Source: a virus. Taken from it: a stretch of 21,650 bases of DNA. The DNA is taken from positions 1-21,650 of IMG/VR virus record IMGVR_UViG_3300031933_000072; one strand, 5' to 3'. Below are positions 8,623-21,403 of the stretch, piece after piece (the first letter of the stretch is position 1; each line of letters starts with the position of its first letter). The translations under genes were made by a program, and so were the position numbers. The notes beneath the pieces are model-generated. The model saw only the letters and a list, made by a program, of their open reading frames with translations, did not search any database and was not told the DNA's origin.

Positions 8623-8652
8623 ATTATACAGCACAAGGGCACCAGAAATCAA
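8623..8652 (-). promoter_or_regulatory. Sigma70-type promoter before the deaminase gene
   Basis: TTGATT (8652-8647), an 18-base spacer, then TATAAT (8628-8623). The spacer holds GGTGCCC and matches the promoter at 20298-20326. The -35 element overlaps the stop codon of the upstream HNH gene. Its host-type architecture suggests early expression, unlike the late-type boxes nearby. Confidence 0.6.
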
Positions 8653-9518
8653 GTCAAGTGTTCCAGTATGCGAACCGTCCATCCCTTATGATGTCTTTGT
8701 TTGCCTTGTGATACTTTACACATAATTCTCCTATCAAGACCATACTGTGGATTTTCTTTACAAAAATTAGTTAGATTATTTGTTATGAATACTTCTCCAT
8801 TTGGACTTTTTAATTCATAAATGTATTTACTATGAGATTTGGATATTTTTATTTTTGTTTCTTCTTTATGTTTCCAATCAACTCTCATTTTTCTTTTTAT
8901 ACTAATTTTTTCTTTTCTTTCTTCACTACAAGGACAATTCATTCCCATTACCCATCCCTCTCCAGGACATTCAACTGAAAGTCTGCGATTTTCTTTTCCA
9001 TTATTCCACCATTTTTTCCCTTTATTATGTCCTAAATTTTTCCTATGTGCTACAGAAACAGGTTTTCCTGTCTTTCCTTTACGTATTTTTTCTTTATGCT
9101 CTTTAGATTTTGGTATTCCCTTCAGTTTTTTGCTTAAATATTCTCTTTCTTCTTCAGTATAAATTTTACCATAATTATGATTATTTTCACCACTTATTGA
9201 ATTTACATATCTTGTCTTGAGATTTTCATACAAATAAGAATTTATATACTTATTTTTAGAATTTCTTTTACAACTCATAGCAAGATGAGCACAAATCATT
9301 TTTTGAGTTTTGTAATGATTTAATCCATATCTTTTTATACAAATCTTTTCTAATAATGCATGAGCAACATAGTGTTCTCTTGCGGTAAGCACAACAATCA
9401 TATTATTCTTTCCAAATATACTTACTGGAAATGTATGGTGTTTTTCTGTATAACCTTCAGGAGGAGTTCTGTTTTCTGCTTTCCTGATAAGATTACAATA
9501 AACCTTTAGATAGTTCAT
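8649..9518 (-). CDS. HNH homing endonuclease with NUMOD3 repeats, 289 aa
   Basis: Residues about 16-65 (GYTEKHHTFPVSIFGKNNMI then LTAREHYVAHALLEKI) hold the HNH metal site: paired His, then a zinc-free His-Asn pattern common to phage HNH enzymes. NUMOD3-type DNA-contact repeats follow (NYGKIYTEEEREYLSKKLKG, SKEHKEKIRKGKTG, CSEERKEKISIKRK). The C-terminus (YELKSPNGEVFITNNLTNFC to GKQRHHKGWTV) is a helix-turn-helix-type DNA-binding unit. The frame is open to 9584, but Met 9518 (MNYLKVYCNLIRKAEN) follows the shared AGAATAGAAATG start seen at two other endonucleases here. The gene is more AT-rich than its neighbours, consistent with transfer. Confidence 0.9.
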   Translation of the reverse strand: MNYLKVYCNLIRKAENRTPPEGYTEKHHTFPVSIFGKNNMIVVLTAREHYVAHALLEKICIKRYGLNHYKTQKMICAHLAMSCKRNSKNKYINSYLYENLKTRYVNSISGENNHNYGKIYTEEEREYLSKKLKGIPKSKEHKEKIRKGKTGKPVSVAHRKNLGHNKGKKWWNNGKENRRLSVECPGEGWVMGMNCPCSEERKEKISIKRKMRVDWKHKEETKIKISKSHSKYIYELKSPNGEVFITNNLTNFCKENPQYGLDRRIMCKVSQGKQRHHKGWTVRILEHLT

Positions 9519-9622
9519 TTCTATTCTATTGAGAGTGCATAAGTATTTATAATACTTTATAATAGAAAAGGTGCCCGAAAGCACCTAATCTTCCTGTGAA
9601 ATTGCACTCTCAACAGGCATCA
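9519..9622 (-). promoter_or_regulatory. Structured endonuclease leader A
   Basis: Arms TTGAGAGTGCA (9529-9539) and TGCACTCTCAA (9603-9613) are perfectly complementary over 11 bp. They enclose the terminator hairpin (9569-9586) and an inner late promoter, TATAAATA (9544-9551). An outer ACTAAATA motif overlaps the stop codon of the 78-aa gene. A read-through transcript would fold the arms together just before the start codon; a transcript from the inner promoter would lack the distal arm. Confidence 0.75.
9569..9586 (-). terminator. Intrinsic terminator hairpin in leader A
   Basis: On the minus strand AGGTGCT pairs with GGCACCT (one U-G pair) around a UUCG loop, followed by TTTTCTATT. This would stop or reduce transcription arriving from the 78-aa gene. 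Confidence 0.7.
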
Positions 9623-9859
9623 TTATTTAGTCACAGGTTTCCTCATCGTATAAGTGTAATAGTGGTCTCTTCCGGATAAGTTATAAGGATCAAAATTTGG
9701 TTGGGACATTATGTATTCATCTTCCATTTGATAATATCCTGCGTTTAACTCTTCCCAAAATGAAAGATAATCTATGCGGTCATTATAATTAACAAAGCGA
9801 AAGTCAATACAATTTCTCCAAGACCAATAGGCATTCTCAACCCATTTTATGAATTTCAT
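9623..9859 (-). CDS. Aromatic-rich hypothetical protein, 78 aa
   Basis: The frame opens further upstream, but Met 9859 (MKFIKWVENAYWSWRNCIDF) follows AAGGAATTGG, a good Shine-Dalgarno, and a TATAATA box. Trp, Tyr and Phe are very frequent (YLSFWEELNAGYYQMEDEY, GRDHYYTYTM). The family is not recognised. Its stop overlaps the outer promoter of leader A. Confidence 0.78.
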   Translation of the reverse strand: MKFIKWVENAYWSWRNCIDFRFVNYNDRIDYLSFWEELNAGYYQMEDEYIMSQPNFDPYNLSGRDHYYTYTMRKPVTK

Positions 9860-9929
9860 CCAATTCCTTGTGTATAAGAGTATTATACCAGATTTTTGAG
9901 AATTATGGTGTGTTCCTTGTGACAGTTTC
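9860..9929 (-). promoter_or_regulatory. Promoter cassette with TATAATA box
   Basis: The box is at 9881-9887 (minus strand reads GGTATAATACTCTTATACAC). The 5' part of the cassette, GGCACTTGAGAAACTGTCAC, overlaps the end of the 68-aa gene and supplies its TGA stop. No strong GGGCA/TGCCC stem is present here. Confidence 0.55.
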
Positions 9930-10136
9930 TCAAGTGCCCTCAAACACCATTAAGTCCCACTCCTCATAACGGGTCTCTAACTTCCCGTCCTTGAGAAAAA
10001 TATTCAGGTGCCCGATGCGCCCGTCTTCCATATAAAACGCACACCACAAATGTCTTTTAGTATCCATCACCTCATAATGAAACATTTTGATGTCATCCAA
10101 TAAGAACTCATCGGGATTATGTATTAGTTTATCCAT
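9930..10136 (-). CDS. Hypothetical protein, 68 aa
   Basis: It begins MDKLIHNPDEFLLDDIKMFH. A strand-rich centre (LWCAFYMEDGRIGHLNIFLK) suggests a small beta-sheet. It ends VFEGT, where the final Thr and stop codon lie in the downstream cassette. Its ATG shares one base with the TGA of the membrane protein gene. The family is not recognised. Confidence 0.8.
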   Translation of the reverse strand: MDKLIHNPDEFLLDDIKMFHYEVMDTKRHLWCAFYMEDGRIGHLNIFLKDGKLETRYEEWDLMVFEGT

Positions 10137-13697: not shown

Positions 13698-14282
13698 TCA
13701 TACCACAGGATTGATATTTTGGAAAGGTGCTTGTTCCAGTTTTTCAACCGATACAATATCTTTATGAGTTTTATGTTTTTCTCTATAAACTTTGGAAATA
13801 GCATTATCATCATATCCATTTTCTTTTGCCCAAGTATGAATACCACAAAGTATAATTTCTCTACCATCGGCAAAAGTTATTTTCCACCATTTTGCCCTTG
13901 AACTTTTTTCTCCAATTTTTCCTCTCATCTTTTCTCTGGTCTCTTCTGTAACAACTTTGTTTTTATGTTTTTTTCCTATTTTCTCTTTTGTTTCTTTTGT
14001 GTGAATATATCCAGTTTTTCCTTCTCCACCGTCAGTTCTATTTCTTAATATTCCAGTTCCCAAATCTTTTCTACCAAAAACAGAAATCATATAGATTTCG
14101 TGTCTAAATGCTTTTTCTTCGGTAAGATTTTGTTTGAGGAAGATTATTCTGGATTTATCTTTTGGTGGGGTGTTTCTTCTACAAGTTGAGTAAATCCTAT
14201 CCTCTTTACCTTTCCCAATATAATAAGGTGTCTTATCTTCCCGCAAATAAGCGTAAGTATAAAACCTGTTAGGATTTACCAT
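13698..14282 (-). CDS. GIY-YIG homing endonuclease, 194 aa
   Basis: YTYAYL (8-13) and YYIGKG (20-25) form the two GIY-YIG strands. Arg29, Glu62 (FRHEIYMI) and Asn81 in NRTDGGEG match the catalytic Arg, Glu and the Asn loop. NUMOD3-type segments follow (HTKETKEKIGKKHKNK, TEETREKMRGKIGEK), then a C-terminal helix-turn-helix-like domain (ITFADGREIILCGIHTWAKE and on). The family spreads by cutting unoccupied copies of its site. The gene is free-standing, inserted between the 125-aa and 181-aa genes with no sign of an intron, and carries leader B. Confidence 0.9.
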   Translation of the reverse strand: MVNPNRFYTYAYLREDKTPYYIGKGKEDRIYSTCRRNTPPKDKSRIIFLKQNLTEEKAFRHEIYMISVFGRKDLGTGILRNRTDGGEGKTGYIHTKETKEKIGKKHKNKVVTEETREKMRGKIGEKSSRAKWWKITFADGREIILCGIHTWAKENGYDDNAISKVYREKHKTHKDIVSVEKLEQAPFQNINPVV

Positions 14283-14399
14283 TTCTATTCTACTTGGACG
14301 GCATTACTATTTATAAGAGTTTATAATAGAAAAGGTGCCCCAAGAGCACCTAATCTTATCTGTAGAGATTGCCGTCCAAACAGACACTCTTATTTATAG
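14283..14399 (-). promoter_or_regulatory. Structured endonuclease leader B
   Basis: Arms TTGGACGGCA (14294-14303) and TGCCGTCCAA (14370-14379) pair perfectly over 10 bp. The inner TATAATA/TATAAATA late promoter lies at 14308-14315. The outer TATAAATA (14391-14398) contains the TAA stop of the 125-aa gene. The sequence is nearly identical to leader C about 6.8 kb away, so one is a recent copy of the other. Confidence 0.78.
14333..14351 (-). terminator. Intrinsic terminator hairpin in leader B
   Basis: On the minus strand AGGTGCTC pairs with GGGCACCT (one U-G pair) around a three-base loop, followed by TTTTCTATT. It stops transcripts arriving from the 125-aa gene before they reach the endonuclease frame. 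Confidence 0.7.
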
Positions 14400-14771
14400 T
14401 CCTTCCAAGACCTCAATAATACCTAAAACATCACGAACATTAATCACTAAAATTCCGTGGTCTCCATCTACATTATAATTATCATACCCACACTGATAGA
14501 TTAGTTCTCTCAAAAGAGCAGCATACTCATATCTCACCTTTGAAATCATAGGAGATTGGTGACCTTCCTTAATAAGTTTTCCCAAAGGAACACCACCATC
14601 AGCAATACGATGTGCGGCACCCAGAAGTTCTTGAGTTTGTTGTTGTGCTTTCAATATGCGGAGTTTCTGTGTTGCGTATGCCGCGAGTTCTCTTTTGTTG
14701 TTGCGAAGTTCTTCTATTTCTTCTGGATTGAGTAGAAACCCATCAGGAATGTGTCCGTATTCTTCATTCAT
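14394..14771 (-). CDS. Hypothetical protein, 125 aa
   Basis: It begins MNEEYGHIPDGFLLNPEEIE and has a long helix (LRNNKRELAAYATQKLRILK), a Gly-rich turn (RIADGGVPLGKLIKEG) and a C-terminal alpha/beta part (HGILVINVRDVLGIIEVLEG). The family is not recognised. Its ATG overlaps the 59-aa gene by 8 bases, and its stop overlaps the outer promoter of leader B. Confidence 0.82.
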   Translation of the reverse strand: MNEEYGHIPDGFLLNPEEIEELRNNKRELAAYATQKLRILKAQQQTQELLGAAHRIADGGVPLGKLIKEGHQSPMISKVRYEYAALLRELIYQCGYDNYNVDGDHGILVINVRDVLGIIEVLEGL

Positions 14772-15372: not shown

Positions 15373-15553
15373 TTTGTTCTTGTTGATATTCTTCTTCTTT
15401 ATCTAATCGTTGTTCCAGTTGCTTCACTCTTTCTAAAAGTTCTTGAAGAATAGAAATCAAAGCAGGATAATGAATGTTTTCTATGTCTTCCCCATACTCT
15501 GGGTCATTATAAACAAAATATTGAAGTTCTTGTGTAAGGTCTCTGGAAGTCAT
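15362..15553 (-). CDS. Coiled-coil protein, 63 aa
   Basis: Met 15553 (MTSRDLTQELQYFVYNDPEY) is chosen because the longer frame to 15604 consists of promoter-cassette sequence. The C-terminal half is a Leu/Glu/Gln-rich coiled coil (LISILQELLERVKQLEQRL). First gene of a five-gene overlapping chain that runs to the 125-aa gene. No strong Shine-Dalgarno is visible. Confidence 0.78.
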   Translation of the reverse strand: MTSRDLTQELQYFVYNDPEYGEDIENIHYPALISILQELLERVKQLEQRLDKEEEYQQEQNEN

Positions 15554-15633
15554 TAGTTTTGTTATGTATAAGAGTATTATAGCATAAAGGGCACCCGTTT
15601 TCAAGTTCCCTTGTGCCAGTTCTTCAAGTGTCC
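15554..15633 (-). promoter_or_regulatory. Promoter/stem-loop cassette
   Basis: The box is at 15575-15581. AAGGG (15587-15591) pairs with CCCTT (15608-15612). The TAA stop of the GIY-YIG gene at 15634 opens the cassette (TAAGGACACTTGA). Confidence 0.6.
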
Positions 15634-16353
15634 TTATAATATTCTGCGTCTCTTGGAAGTGTCTATACCTCTTGCTCTTTGGTATTTTGCGAGATTTCCA
15701 GCATTAGTTACAAAACCAGTTTCAAGACATTCCCATTTTTGATTTGCTGGTTTATCAGTATTTTTATAGTTAAGCATTCTCCTCATTTCAGACCTCCTAT
15801 TTCTTTCTTCGTCCGTAATGTTTTGTTTTTTACCTTTTTTTTCTTTATTTTTTTCCGATACATCTGGTCTTTTTTTACCATACATATGGTTATTCTCTCC
15901 ACACATATTTTTTCTGTTTCCTGATGTATTTGGTCTTTTTATACCTTTCATTTGTCTATTTCTTTCTGCTAAATCTGGTCTCTTTTTTCCATACATTCCA
16001 TTTTTTTCACCTTTAGTTACTTCAGACATTTTTTGTCTATATTCATCAGTTACTTTTATTCCCGATGTAGTAAATCCTGTAGAAGTTTGATATGACCTAT
16101 TAGCAAAATGTGGATTTTCAACTACTTTATAATGTTGTTGAAGAATAATTTCATCAGCATATGCTTCCTCTCTTGTAGCATAATCGTCTTTGAGTATTAT
16201 TTTGTGAGTTGGTTTAAATGTTTTATTCCTTGAAGAACCCAGATACTTTATATCTTCTTCTGGAAGACATTTACATCCTCTACTTCCAAAATAACCCCTA
16301 CCCCATTCTTCATAAGAATAATAGGTATAATAATACTCTTCTGGAGTTTTCAT
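15634..16353 (-). CDS. GIY-YIG homing endonuclease, 239 aa
   Basis: From Met 16353 (MKTPEEYYYTYYSYEEW). YYTYYSYEEWGRGYFGSRGC is the GIY-YIG strand pair in the phage variant form, with EEAYADEIILQQHY supplying the conserved Glu. NUMOD3-like repeats follow (MYGKKRPDLAERNRQMKG, MYGKKRPDVSEKNKEKKG). The C-terminal 35 residues (WECLETGFVTNAGNLAKYQR to TSKRRRIL) are nearly identical to those of the 20356-21114 protein. The frame extends to 16380, but the added residues would be leader arm sequence. Free-standing, between the 63-aa and 218-aa genes; its leader is D. Confidence 0.88.
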   Translation of the reverse strand: MKTPEEYYYTYYSYEEWGRGYFGSRGCKCLPEEDIKYLGSSRNKTFKPTHKIILKDDYATREEAYADEIILQQHYKVVENPHFANRSYQTSTGFTTSGIKVTDEYRQKMSEVTKGEKNGMYGKKRPDLAERNRQMKGIKRPNTSGNRKNMCGENNHMYGKKRPDVSEKNKEKKGKKQNITDEERNRRSEMRRMLNYKNTDKPANQKWECLETGFVTNAGNLAKYQRARGIDTSKRRRIL

Positions 16354-16462
16354 AGTTCTGCTTCTATATTGAGTTCGCAATACTATTTATACAAGAAAAG
16401 ATGCCCGAAGACACCTTTTCCACTCTTATGGATGCGAACTCATTAGAGCACTATTATTTATG
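16354..16462 (-). promoter_or_regulatory. Structured endonuclease leader D
   Basis: Arms TGAGTTCGCA (16370-16379) and TGCGAACTCA (16433-16442) pair perfectly over 10 bp with a sequence unlike the other leaders. The inner TATAAATA is at 16384-16391. The outer CATAAATA (16455-16462) contains the TAA stop of the 218-aa gene. Confidence 0.75.
16398..16417 (-). terminator. Intrinsic terminator hairpin in leader D
   Basis: On the minus strand AAGGTGTC and GGCATCTT pair over 8 bp around a UUCG loop, using two G-U pairs; TTCTTGT follows. The pairing works as RNA of this strand only, because the complementary strand would have A-C mismatches. Confidence 0.65.
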
Positions 16463-17114
16463 CCTTCTTATTACGAAGTTTAAATTTTATTTTTCGCAGA
16501 AGTTCATTATGTGCTTCTACGGCAACTACCGTATCTATATTTTGGGAACCAGAACTATCTTGTTCTCCCGGAAGAAATAGTGTTATAATATCCAACAAAT
16601 CCTCCACACATTCCTCCATACTCCATTCTGGATGATGAACGAAGCAAGTTTCCCACCACTTATAAATTCGGTCTTCTAAACTTCTACTCAACTCAAAACG
16701 AAGAAATGAAGGTGGATTTTCCTCCCACTTCTTCAACATTCTATTCACAACTTCATCATTCTCATACTTATTCTCTAACCTATCCAGAACCTCATTCATA
16801 GGTTTTGGAGTTTGTGGTTTCACCCAATCTAATGGATTTTCATTAGGATGCTCTTCACACCATTTTTTACTCTCACGAACAACATCCCATTTTTCGGGTT
16901 CCTTTGGTTTTTGAAACTCCTCAACAGCATCTACAATCTCATAACAACAATCGTAGGAATATCCAAGATTACGGATTACATCAAGAAGTGTTTCTGGTTT
17001 TGGATAAGCATTCTTGATTTTATCAAAGAGTGGTCGGGTCTCATCGTTGAGTTCCACATACTTATCAATCTGTTTCAACTCCTCAACTGTAAGATTAAGT
17101 GTAATGTCAGTCAT
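16458..17114 (-). CDS. Hypothetical protein, 218 aa
   Basis: It begins MTDITLNLTVEELKQIDKYV, a typical beta strand and helix. The middle is Pro/Trp/Lys-rich (FQKPKEPEKWDVVRESKKW, NPLDWVKPQTPKP), then comes a helical part with WWETCFVHHPEWSMEECVED. The LNLTVEEL start is common in phage proteins of unknown role. Function is not recognised. It overlaps the coiled-coil gene upstream by 8 bases and ends at the outer promoter of leader D. Confidence 0.83.
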   Translation of the reverse strand: MTDITLNLTVEELKQIDKYVELNDETRPLFDKIKNAYPKPETLLDVIRNLGYSYDCCYEIVDAVEEFQKPKEPEKWDVVRESKKWCEEHPNENPLDWVKPQTPKPMNEVLDRLENKYENDEVVNRMLKKWEENPPSFLRFELSRSLEDRIYKWWETCFVHHPEWSMEECVEDLLDIITLFLPGEQDSSGSQNIDTVVAVEAHNELLRKIKFKLRNKKA

Positions 17115-20041: not shown

Positions 20042-20274
20042 AAGACCTCACTTAACATAATGTCTTTACCATTTTTCATATCCTTATGATAGATATAACA
20101 ACCTCCACACCAACCAGAGGATTTTATAAGATTTTCACTATAATCACTCACCTCAACCTCCATAAGGTCTTCGGTGGAAAGAATATCACACTTGAAGTTT
20201 TCTGCTTCAATTTCATTTTCGGCAAGAACCCATCCAGATTTGGTGACTTCTACATAAAAAAGTTTTTTAGTCAT
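20038..20274 (-). CDS. Hypothetical protein, 78 aa
   Basis: It begins MTKKLFYVEVTKSGWVLAEN, a strand-turn-strand, then EIEAENFKCDILSTEDLMEV and SSGWCGGCYIYHKDMKNGKD. The CGGC pair is followed by one His and could be part of a metal site. First gene of the chain 20274 to 18612, with CTCCTT-AT-ATG before the start (weak SD). The family is not recognised. Confidence 0.82.
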   Translation of the reverse strand: MTKKLFYVEVTKSGWVLAENEIEAENFKCDILSTEDLMEVEVSDYSENLIKSSGWCGGCYIYHKDMKNGKDIMLSEVL

Positions 20275-20355
20275 AAGGAGGTTTGTTTCATAAAGTCATT
20301 ATACAACAAAGGGCACCAGATTTCAAGTGCCCTTGTGACGGTTTCTCAAGTGTCC
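20275..20355 (-). promoter_or_regulatory. Cassette with a full sigma70-type promoter
   Basis: TTGAAA (20326-20321), a 17-base spacer, then TATAAT (20303-20298). A perfect 8-bp stem AAGGGCAC/GTGCCCTT (20309-20316 with 20327-20334) overlaps both elements, so hairpin and promoter are intertwined. GACGGTTTCTCAAGTG lies upstream, where the GIY-YIG gene ends. Confidence 0.7.
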
Positions 20356-21114
20356 TTATGATATTCGTTTTCTTTTAGATGTATCAATTCCTCTTGCTCT
20401 TTGATATCTTGCTAGATTTCCAGCATTAGCAACAAATCCAGTTTCGCAACATTCCCACATTTGAGATGATACTATTTTTCCACCTTTTTTACTATTTTCT
20501 ATTCTTTCTTCTTTGGGAATAGAAGAAATACCACTTTTTTTACCTGCTTGACTTAATTCTTCGGCAGTCATAGCAAATATTCCAACACCAAGTTCTTTTG
20601 CTCTTTGTGCTCCCTTTTTACCATCTTCAATTTTTTGTTCTTTTGTTCTTCCAAAAACACCAGTTCCATTTTCTTTATGATTTTTTCCTGTTATTTTGCC
20701 TACTATACTTCCACTTTTTTTTCTATCTTCAATTATTTTTTCAGGTGTTCTCCCAAACAGACCAAATTTAAGTTCATATGATTTTTCCCCAACTTTTTTT
20801 CCTGTTTTTCTTCTTACATCTAATGATACTATTCCACCACAACTTTCATTCAAGCACCATTTATCAGTATTATAAAATGGTTTAATCAACCTATCTTCAA
20901 CTAAATTTGCTTCCAACCAATCTTCATCAGTAAAAGGAAAAACTTCTAATATTTGTTTCTTTGGTGTATAAAAATCCCACATCCACTTATGAGTTATAGG
21001 AGAACCCATATAATATTCATCAAACTTTTTCTCTTTATGAACTCCATAGTAATAATACAAAACTTCATCAAAGGTAATTTTGTATATGTAAATCCTTGGA
21101 CTTTGTAAAGTCAT
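20356..21114 (-). CDS. GIY-YIG homing endonuclease, 252 aa
   Basis: YIYKITFDEVLYYYYGVHKE is the GIY-YIG strand pair; EYYMGSPI and WLEANLVEDRLIKPFYN supply the following loop and conserved Glu. NUMOD-type repeats follow (FGLFGRTPEKIIEDRKKSGS, TGVFGRTKEQKIEDGKKGAQ, GIFAMTAEELSQAGKKSGI). The C-terminal 35 residues (WECCETGFVANAGNLARYQR to KRKRIS) nearly match the 15634-16353 protein. Met 21114 (MTLQSPRIYIYK) is preceded by the shared AGAATAGAA. The gene lies between the 60-aa and 78-aa genes and uses leader C. Confidence 0.9.
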   Translation of the reverse strand: MTLQSPRIYIYKITFDEVLYYYYGVHKEKKFDEYYMGSPITHKWMWDFYTPKKQILEVFPFTDEDWLEANLVEDRLIKPFYNTDKWCLNESCGGIVSLDVRRKTGKKVGEKSYELKFGLFGRTPEKIIEDRKKSGSIVGKITGKNHKENGTGVFGRTKEQKIEDGKKGAQRAKELGVGIFAMTAEELSQAGKKSGISSIPKEERIENSKKGGKIVSSQMWECCETGFVANAGNLARYQRARGIDTSKRKRIS

Positions 21115-21229
21115 TTCTATTCTACTTGAACGGCATTACTATTTATAAGAGTTTATAATAGAAAAGGTGCCCGAAAGCACCTAATCTTATCTGTAGAGAT
21201 TGCCGTCCAAACAGATATTATTATTTATA
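21115..21229 (-). promoter_or_regulatory. Structured endonuclease leader C
   Basis: Arms TTGAACGGCA (21126-21135) and TGCCGTCCAA (21201-21210). As RNA of the minus strand they pair fully, with one G-U pair; as the opposite strand they would mismatch. The inner TATAAATA is at 21140-21147. The outer TATAAATA (21222-21229) overlaps the TAA stop of the 60-aa gene. Confidence 0.78.
21165..21182 (-). terminator. Intrinsic terminator hairpin in leader C
   Basis: AGGTGCT/GGCACCT with a UUCG loop, followed by TTTTCTATT on the minus strand, identical to the hairpin of leader A although the two leaders' arms differ. Confidence 0.7.
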
Positions 21230-21403
21230 AGGCACTTGTCCGGATTTTTTCCACGGAGAAGTGAATACTAACCATCTCTCAATTCCCGATTTCATCTCTG
21301 CGACATAATGCTCCCCATCATCTGTAATTGCGTCAAGATAGTGTATTTTTGTAGTAGGACAGATTACTCTGGATACTTGTGTGAATTTTACTCGTTCAGT
21401 CAT
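21221..21403 (-). CDS. Hypothetical protein, 60 aa
   Basis: It begins MTERVKFTQVSRVICPTTKI, followed by HYLDAITDDGEHYVAEMKSG and a Trp-rich end (ERWLVFTSPWKKSGQVPYK). Likely an all-beta fold. The family is not recognised. It overlaps the next gene upstream as ATGA, and its TAA stop is part of the outer promoter of leader C. Confidence 0.8.
   Translation of the reverse strand: MTERVKFTQVSRVICPTTKIHYLDAITDDGEHYVAEMKSGIERWLVFTSPWKKSGQVPYK

Follow-up and report, generated by a model that had tools for sequence, protein, structure and literature searches.

Leader organisation of the minus-strand homing endonuclease genes

What controls the four homing endonuclease genes of this locus, each of which is preceded by two complementary sequence arms with a terminator and a late promoter between them? 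Endonuclease genes of T4-type phages are silent in early transcripts through hairpins and are expressed from internal late promoters (PMC2988022). The window, an IMG/VR virus record analysed over its whole length of 21,650 bases, has the cyanophages S-PM2 and S-SRM01 as its nearest named matches. Matches to phage homing-endonuclease families or to GIY-YIG/NUMOD3 profiles were obtained for four ORFs on the minus strand, namely endonuclease A (8649-9518; HNH type, PHROG 655 homing endonuclease, ATG start at 9518), endonuclease B (13698-14282; GIY-YIG, YTYAYLR...YYIGKGK, NUMOD3), endonuclease C (15634-16353; NUMOD3, PHROG 314 homing endonuclease) and endonuclease D (20356-21114; PHROG 314 homing endonuclease). 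The first-pass annotation had restricted the complementary arms to minus-strand endonucleases, and the plus-strand HNH endonuclease gene at 1980-2519 indeed has neither a late box nor an arm cassette in its leader. Endonucleases C and D have a near-identical C-terminal segment (AGNLA[K/R]YQRARGIDTSKR) and unlike N-terminal parts, and the common segment suggests that a DNA-binding end has been exchanged between them. The GIY-YIG endonuclease-like proteins gp114 of S-SRM01, gp45 of B23 and SfCH5_200 of Sf-CH5 are labelled 'translation initiation factor 2' in public records, which is likely a misannotation.

On the sense strand all four leaders present the same order of elements: a first late-promoter-like box (P1), a hairpin (stem a) with the 5' arm in its loop, a terminator, a second late promoter (P2), the complementary arm (arm') and the start codon. 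Stem a begins approximately 5 nt after the P1 box. In leader A, P1 (ACTAAATA; 9624-9631, minus strand, as are all features below) shares bases with the stop codon of the gene upstream (9623-9943) and precedes a predicted small RNA (9562-9618, putative ends), within which stem a (CCUGU 9613-9617/ACAGG 9593-9597) holds the arm (9603-9614) and is followed by a terminator (9569-9586) and a U tract. P2 (TATAAATA) is located at 9544-9551, and arm' (TGCACTCTCAATAG; 9526-9539) falls where the late mRNA is predicted to start. Leader B has P1 (TATAAATA) at 14391-14398, overlapping the stop codon of the gene at 14394-14771, a predicted small RNA at 14326-14385 (putative ends), stem a (GUCUGU 14380-14385/ACAGAU 14358-14363) around the arm at 14370-14383, a terminator at 14333-14351, P2 (TATAAATA) at 14308-14315 and arm' (TGCCGTCCAAGTAG) at 14290-14303. 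The corresponding elements of leader C are P1 (CATAAATA; 16455-16462, overlapping the stop codon of the gene at 16458-17114), a small RNA predicted at 16394-16449 (putative ends), stem a (GCUCU 16445-16449/AGAGU 16422-16426), the arm (16433-16442), the terminator (16396-16419), P2 (TATAAATA; 16384-16391) and arm' (TGCGAACTCA; 16370-16379). In leader D, P1 (TATAAATA; 21222-21229) overlaps the stop codon of the gene at 21221-21403, followed by a predicted small RNA (21158-21216, putative ends) with stem a (AUCUGU 21211-21216/ACAGAU 21189-21194), the arm (21201-21214) and the terminator (21165-21182), and then by P2 (TATAAATA; 21140-21147) and arm' (TGCCGTTCAAGTAG; 21122-21135), which pairs with its own arm through a G-U.

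The order of arm, terminator hairpin, TATAAATA, complementary arm and ATG had been recognised in the first-pass annotation and was found in all four leaders. The arms, terminator and P2 of leader A lie within the span of 9519-9622 that it assigned to the element, but the element starts further upstream, with the second late box at 9624-9631; P1 and the conserved hairpin that holds the 5' arm in its loop were missing from its list of parts. The longest Watson-Crick runs between the arms are 11, 10, 10 and 6 bp in leaders A, B, C and D, respectively, or 14, 15, 10 and 15 bp when G-U is allowed, and the better of the two measures gives p ≤0.0005 for each leader in a base shuffle of the two arm windows. 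The arms do differ in sequence between loci as had been claimed, but the earlier assignment to labels needs correction: the leaders at 14283 and 21115 have the same arm and form one family, while the arm at 9519 and that at 16354 are unlike this family and unlike one another. A G-U pair described as valid only in minus-strand RNA was located in the leader at 21115, which needs it for pairing.

Conservation of the leader elements in related cyanophages

Scanning contigs for the pattern of a terminator with a late box downstream recovered 118 stretches, most of the same architecture and with many different arms. A second set was picked by endonuclease protein similarity, such that the leader itself was not the basis of selection. 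In this set a TAAATA box (P2) occurs within 60 nt of the start in 99 of 106 distinct leaders, and a second TAAATA box (P1) lies 55-110 nt further up in 96 of these 99, as compared to 0/99 in control windows further upstream. P2 reads TATAAATA in 88/96 leaders, while P1 reads NATAAATA in 77/96 and NCTAAATA in the remainder. The 8-mer NATAAATA is the late box reported for S-PM2 (PMC2984593), and the boxes conform to it in sequence, with predicted start sites. In T4 late promoters, the TATA box is located about one helical turn upstream of the start (PMC2988020). With this geometry, assumed for the cyanophages, the P1 RNA would begin at stem a and the P2 mRNA inside arm', with a leader of 18-25 nt.

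The interval between the two boxes is highly structured, folding at -22.5 kcal/mol vs -11.8 kcal/mol for shuffled sequence, and includes a terminator-like hairpin in 85/96 leaders. The first paired base is found 4-5 nt after the P1 box in 86-87/96 leaders (13% of shuffles), and the first hairpin encloses the arm in all 96. Of 121 representatives, 100 have arm' starting 4-5 nt downstream of the P2 box, which places the predicted start of the late mRNA inside arm'. A promoter box and an intrinsic terminator thus surround a short structured RNA, and P1, hairpin and terminator together resemble a gene for a small RNA of ~60 nt, with complementarity to the initial 10-15 nt of the late endonuclease mRNA. 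A known RNA family was rejected as the identity of the leader, as no Rfam covariance model reached its gathering score anywhere in the window, and positions 9480-9680 had no hit even when E values up to 1 were admitted.

Pairing of the arms at the RNA level

In the protein-picked set, at least eight consecutive Watson-Crick pairs join arm and arm' in 82/96 leaders, compared to 4.6% when partners were swapped between leaders, and the mean duplex energy is -21.5 kcal/mol with own partners vs -8.9 kcal/mol with swapped ones. Partner swapping served as the control for pairing, while pairing in parallel orientation was set aside as unsuited because some arms are mirror-symmetric. Once the 64 distinct arm pairs of the protein-picked set are registered by Watson-Crick pairs alone, their internal non-Watson-Crick pairs comprise 21 G·U and one A·C. 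Across all cassettes, including those from the pattern search, the ratio is 46:2, which was not counted as evidence since that set was selected with G·U allowed. A DNA-acting inverted repeat would be expected to show G·U and A·C in about equal numbers, and the ratio of 21:1 therefore indicates that the pairing acts in sense-strand RNA.

An alignment of 47 rows from one subfamily shows 98.3% pairing in the arm helix, with both partners altered at nine of its 14 pairs. Its covariation score is 0.533, vs a shuffled mean of 0.187 and values ≤0.091 when the helix is slid. Complementarity to the target leader is thus kept by covariation. Together with the asymmetry of G·U and A·C, this bears out the first-pass proposal that the arms pair as RNA. 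Stem a is paired at 94.2%, with a covariation score of 0.332 vs 0.220 shuffled. At column 16 of the same alignment stem a is broken in 13 rows, while the arm helix is paired in every row, such that the two helices compete for the same strand. Conservation of stem a implies a period in which the RNA functions in the absence of arm', as expected of a terminated transcript. Folding of read-through RNA predicts a long arm:arm' stem. No clear signal was found that arm seeds diverge more within a phage than between phages, strong cross-pairing amounting to 3% within vs 6.5% between records, both of which rest on small numbers.

Distribution and mobility of the module

The cassette precedes approximately 181 ORFs in cyanophage contigs, nearly all of them endonuclease-like, and is found before HNH as well as several GIY-YIG families. 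A chunked scan of S-SRM01 located it only before gp030, gp066, gp075, gp091, gp114, gp152 and gp297, which are annotated as or resemble endonucleases, and it is also present in phages B23 and S-B68. Related endonucleases of ACG-2014f, S-N03 and RN05-S lack the cassette, and one exact pattern gave no match in bacterial and archaeal genomes. Arms and enzymes are only loosely associated: 19 of 83 arm sequences precede two or more families, one of them being common to up to four unrelated endonuclease families, while single families use up to 33 arms. This is the behaviour of an insertable module that, as judged from these combinations, swaps between HNH and GIY-YIG genes, and the transferability proposed in the first-pass annotation is upheld.

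Empty alleles are available for two of the insertion sites, that of leader A (in L035) and that of leader B (in L329-L331). In both, the flanking genes are joined and there is no TAAATA at the junction, indicating that P1 was brought in by the insertion; an origin of P1 from the pre-existing target sequence is thus ruled out for sites A and B. At site A, the short sequence ATGAG recurs on either side of the insert when compared with the empty allele (L035 7316-7330 vs window 8640-8660 and 9630-9650), within the 3' end of the upstream gene.

Downstream of endonucleases D (20250-20355) and C (15500-15633), on the minus strand and after the stop codon, a hairpin overlaps a perfect sigma-70-type promoter (TTGAAA-N17-TATAAT). 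Sigma-70-like promoters with at most one mismatch occur downstream of 33/166 cassette genes, vs 1 and 4 in two control sets, and such a promoter 3' of a cassette gene could restart early transcription beyond the cassette terminator. As only 33 of the 166 genes have a strong one and similar sequences occur elsewhere in S-SRM01, a restart promoter was rejected as a fixed part of the module, and it is probably a feature of some insertion sites.

A second leader architecture

A distinct leader form, GTGGGCAGCAACT-loop-AGTTGCGTAAGTCCCAC, carries an arm of 11-14 nt in its loop, and its arm' abuts or overlaps the start codon. It appears genuine in approximately 24 of 29 distinct stretches, comprises a nested terminator and seed hairpin (GCAGCAACU...AGUUGCGUAAG; L160, L280 and L285-L327) and also occurs in Sf-CH5. 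The pairing principle thus recurs in a different scaffold, and the position of arm' points to translation initiation as the natural target of the pairing. These stretches have no consistent P1 or upstream late box, such that leaders with paired arms do not all depend on a small RNA, and in some of them action in cis alone may suffice. Other layouts occur in S-SRM01, the same phage that carries seven antisense-type cassettes: the leader of gp048 (L279 near 33030-33079) forms a short hairpin around TATAAATA in the classical I-TevI-like layout, and that of gp253 has a different hairpin, located between late box and AUG.

Proposed mechanism and alternative explanations

It is moderately probable that each endonuclease gene travels with a self-silencing leader, in which a small RNA from P1 blocks the gene's own mRNA in trans and the same pairing acts in cis on read-through RNA. 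The late promoter P1 would give rise to a small RNA of ~60 nt that starts at the first base of stem a and ends at the intrinsic terminator. Its loop would present the arm, the complement of the 5'-terminal 10-15 nt of the endonuclease mRNA made from the late promoter P2; pairing would start at this loop and could extend through the 5' strand of stem a. The resulting duplex would cover the mRNA from its 5' end to 4-16 nt before the AUG and block 30S binding. Read-through RNA, whether from early transcripts or from read-through of P1, would hold arm and arm' in cis and be silent, while the terminator would insulate the gene from upstream transcription. Only those P2 transcripts that outrun the small RNA would be translated, such that the enzyme would appear late and sparingly. 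The conserved parts, their positions, the RNA-level covariation of both helices and the mobility of the module can be read directly from the sequences; the activity of P1 and P2 as promoters, the existence of the small RNA, its action in trans and its repressive sign are what we infer. As the arm is made before the terminator and arm' after it, pairing cannot control termination, which was ruled out on this order of transcription, and translation or stability are left. Translation control is favoured by the second architecture, where arm' abuts or overlaps the AUG. In most leaders arm' stops 6-16 nt before the AUG, which makes ribosome blocking likely, though not obvious.

The alternative that survives best, although we consider it unlikely, is control in cis only, of the I-TevI kind, whereby arm and arm' pair solely in upstream-initiated read-through RNA and hide the ribosome site, the late P2 mRNA is free and there is no functional small RNA. 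Such silencing had been proposed in the first-pass annotation, and the terminator, the internal late promoter and the long arm:arm' stem predicted for read-through RNA all agree with it. I-TevI is an established case of this mechanism, which has also been reported for segB and mobE (PMC2988022), the S-SRM01 gp048 hairpin encloses its late promoter, and the second architecture, with no recognisable P1, fits this cis model better. It leaves unexplained, however, why P1 is present in 96/99 leaders at a fixed spacing to stem a, and why a 5' hairpin is conserved whose 5' strand competes with the arm:arm' helix. P1 and this hairpin fit a terminated small RNA able to act in trans, and the cis mechanism may operate as well.

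A small RNA that protects or activates the mRNA, either by a 5'-end duplex shielding it from 5'-end-dependent decay or by melting an inhibitory fold, is improbable. In bacteria, RNA duplexes are known to protect mRNA, and arm' lies where the mRNA is predicted to begin. The late mRNA leaders, however, are already weakly folded (-3 to -5 kcal/mol), leaving little to melt, the pairing reaches the AUG in the second architecture, and the known control of phage endonucleases has so far been negative (PMC2988022). More doubtful still is that P1 merely supplies a stop codon for the gene cut at insertion and the terminator merely insulates, the arms being the sole regulatory part. At each of the four window sites P1 does share bases with the upstream stop codon, and it could be kept partly for its stop codons, yet that role requires neither a full TAAATA nor a fixed distance of 5 nt to stem a. 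Finally, although I-TevI binds an operator overlapping its own late promoter (PMC2988022), it is scarcely credible that the inverted arms are a DNA-level operator, homing site or recombination signal, as the 21 G·U vs one A·C are strand-specific and an enzyme cannot be the reader of arms that serve up to four unrelated families each and number up to 33 in one family, on which grounds this candidate was excluded.

With slightly less confidence than the self-silencing leader itself, a large cyanophage family of mobile, sequence-diversified antisense small RNAs is proposed, with a tandem upstream gene for each endonuclease, silencing in trans and in cis, and seeds that keep co-resident elements largely independent. 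A 2010 review of post-transcriptional control in T4 noted the lack of any functionally characterised trans-acting small RNA from this phage and named related phage genomes as a possible source of candidates (PMC3014915). The predicted cassette RNA is such a candidate, widespread and with strong covariation, and there is a sizeable chance that it represents the first large trans-acting small-RNA family from T4-type phages. If so, a selfish DNA cutter would carry an RNA brake that works wherever it is inserted and whichever nuclease is fused to it. Its pairs, which diversify under a strict pairing rule and show few cross-matches in S-SRM01, would constitute a natural set of matched RNA regulators.

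Comparison with known systems

The closest systems, T4 I-TevI, I-TevII, I-TevIII and segB and Aeh1 mobE (PMC2988022), likewise combine a phage homing endonuclease, RNA pairing in upstream-initiated transcripts and an internal late promoter that restores late expression. As in these, the late promoter lies inside the pairing region, P2 being located between arm and arm' in four of the four window leaders, such that late mRNA would lack the 5' arm. The pairing predicted for the cyanophage leaders ends 4-16 nt before the AUG in the main form and reaches it in the second. The I-TevI-type systems, however, have one local hairpin over the ribosome site, while the cyanophage leader has a terminator between its arms and, downstream of a second late promoter, a dedicated hairpin whose loop includes the 5' arm. 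This is not a single local hairpin lacking a separate RNA gene, as the second late box, the 5' hairpin and the terminator are conserved upstream. Furthermore, unlike the I-TevI-type elements, the module is common to unrelated endonuclease families and has dozens of arm sequences. A cyanophage non-coding RNA linked to a homing endonuclease gene is also known from S-PM2, where the antisense RNA CfrI (~225 nt) is encoded opposite psbA and the endonuclease (PMC2984593). The predicted cassette RNA instead lies on the same strand, upstream of its target, and has a short seed. The literature searched gave no example of a small-RNA gene in tandem with its target on the same strand and with a diversified loop seed, which is weak evidence given the poor coverage of subscription journals.

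Outside the phages, small RNAs of type I toxin-antitoxin systems, such as IstR-1/tisB, are short and structured, have their own promoter and terminator, adjoin their target and show short complementarity to its leader. The predicted cassette RNA resembles these in its own promoter and terminator, its position adjoining the target and its short complementarity to the leader; it differs in that the target is a homing endonuclease in a lytic phage, the promoters are tandem phage late promoters on the same strand and the seed varies widely between copies. In IS200 tnpA and IS10 RNA-OUT, the nuclease of a selfish element is kept low by a leader structure that resists incoming transcription together with an antisense RNA, the latter overlapping the gene on the opposite strand, with no phage late promoters, tandem layout or diversified seeds. 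The cassette resembles these elements in joining a selfish nuclease to a leader structure and a predicted antisense RNA, and is set apart from them by its phage late promoters, its tandem layout and its diversified seeds.
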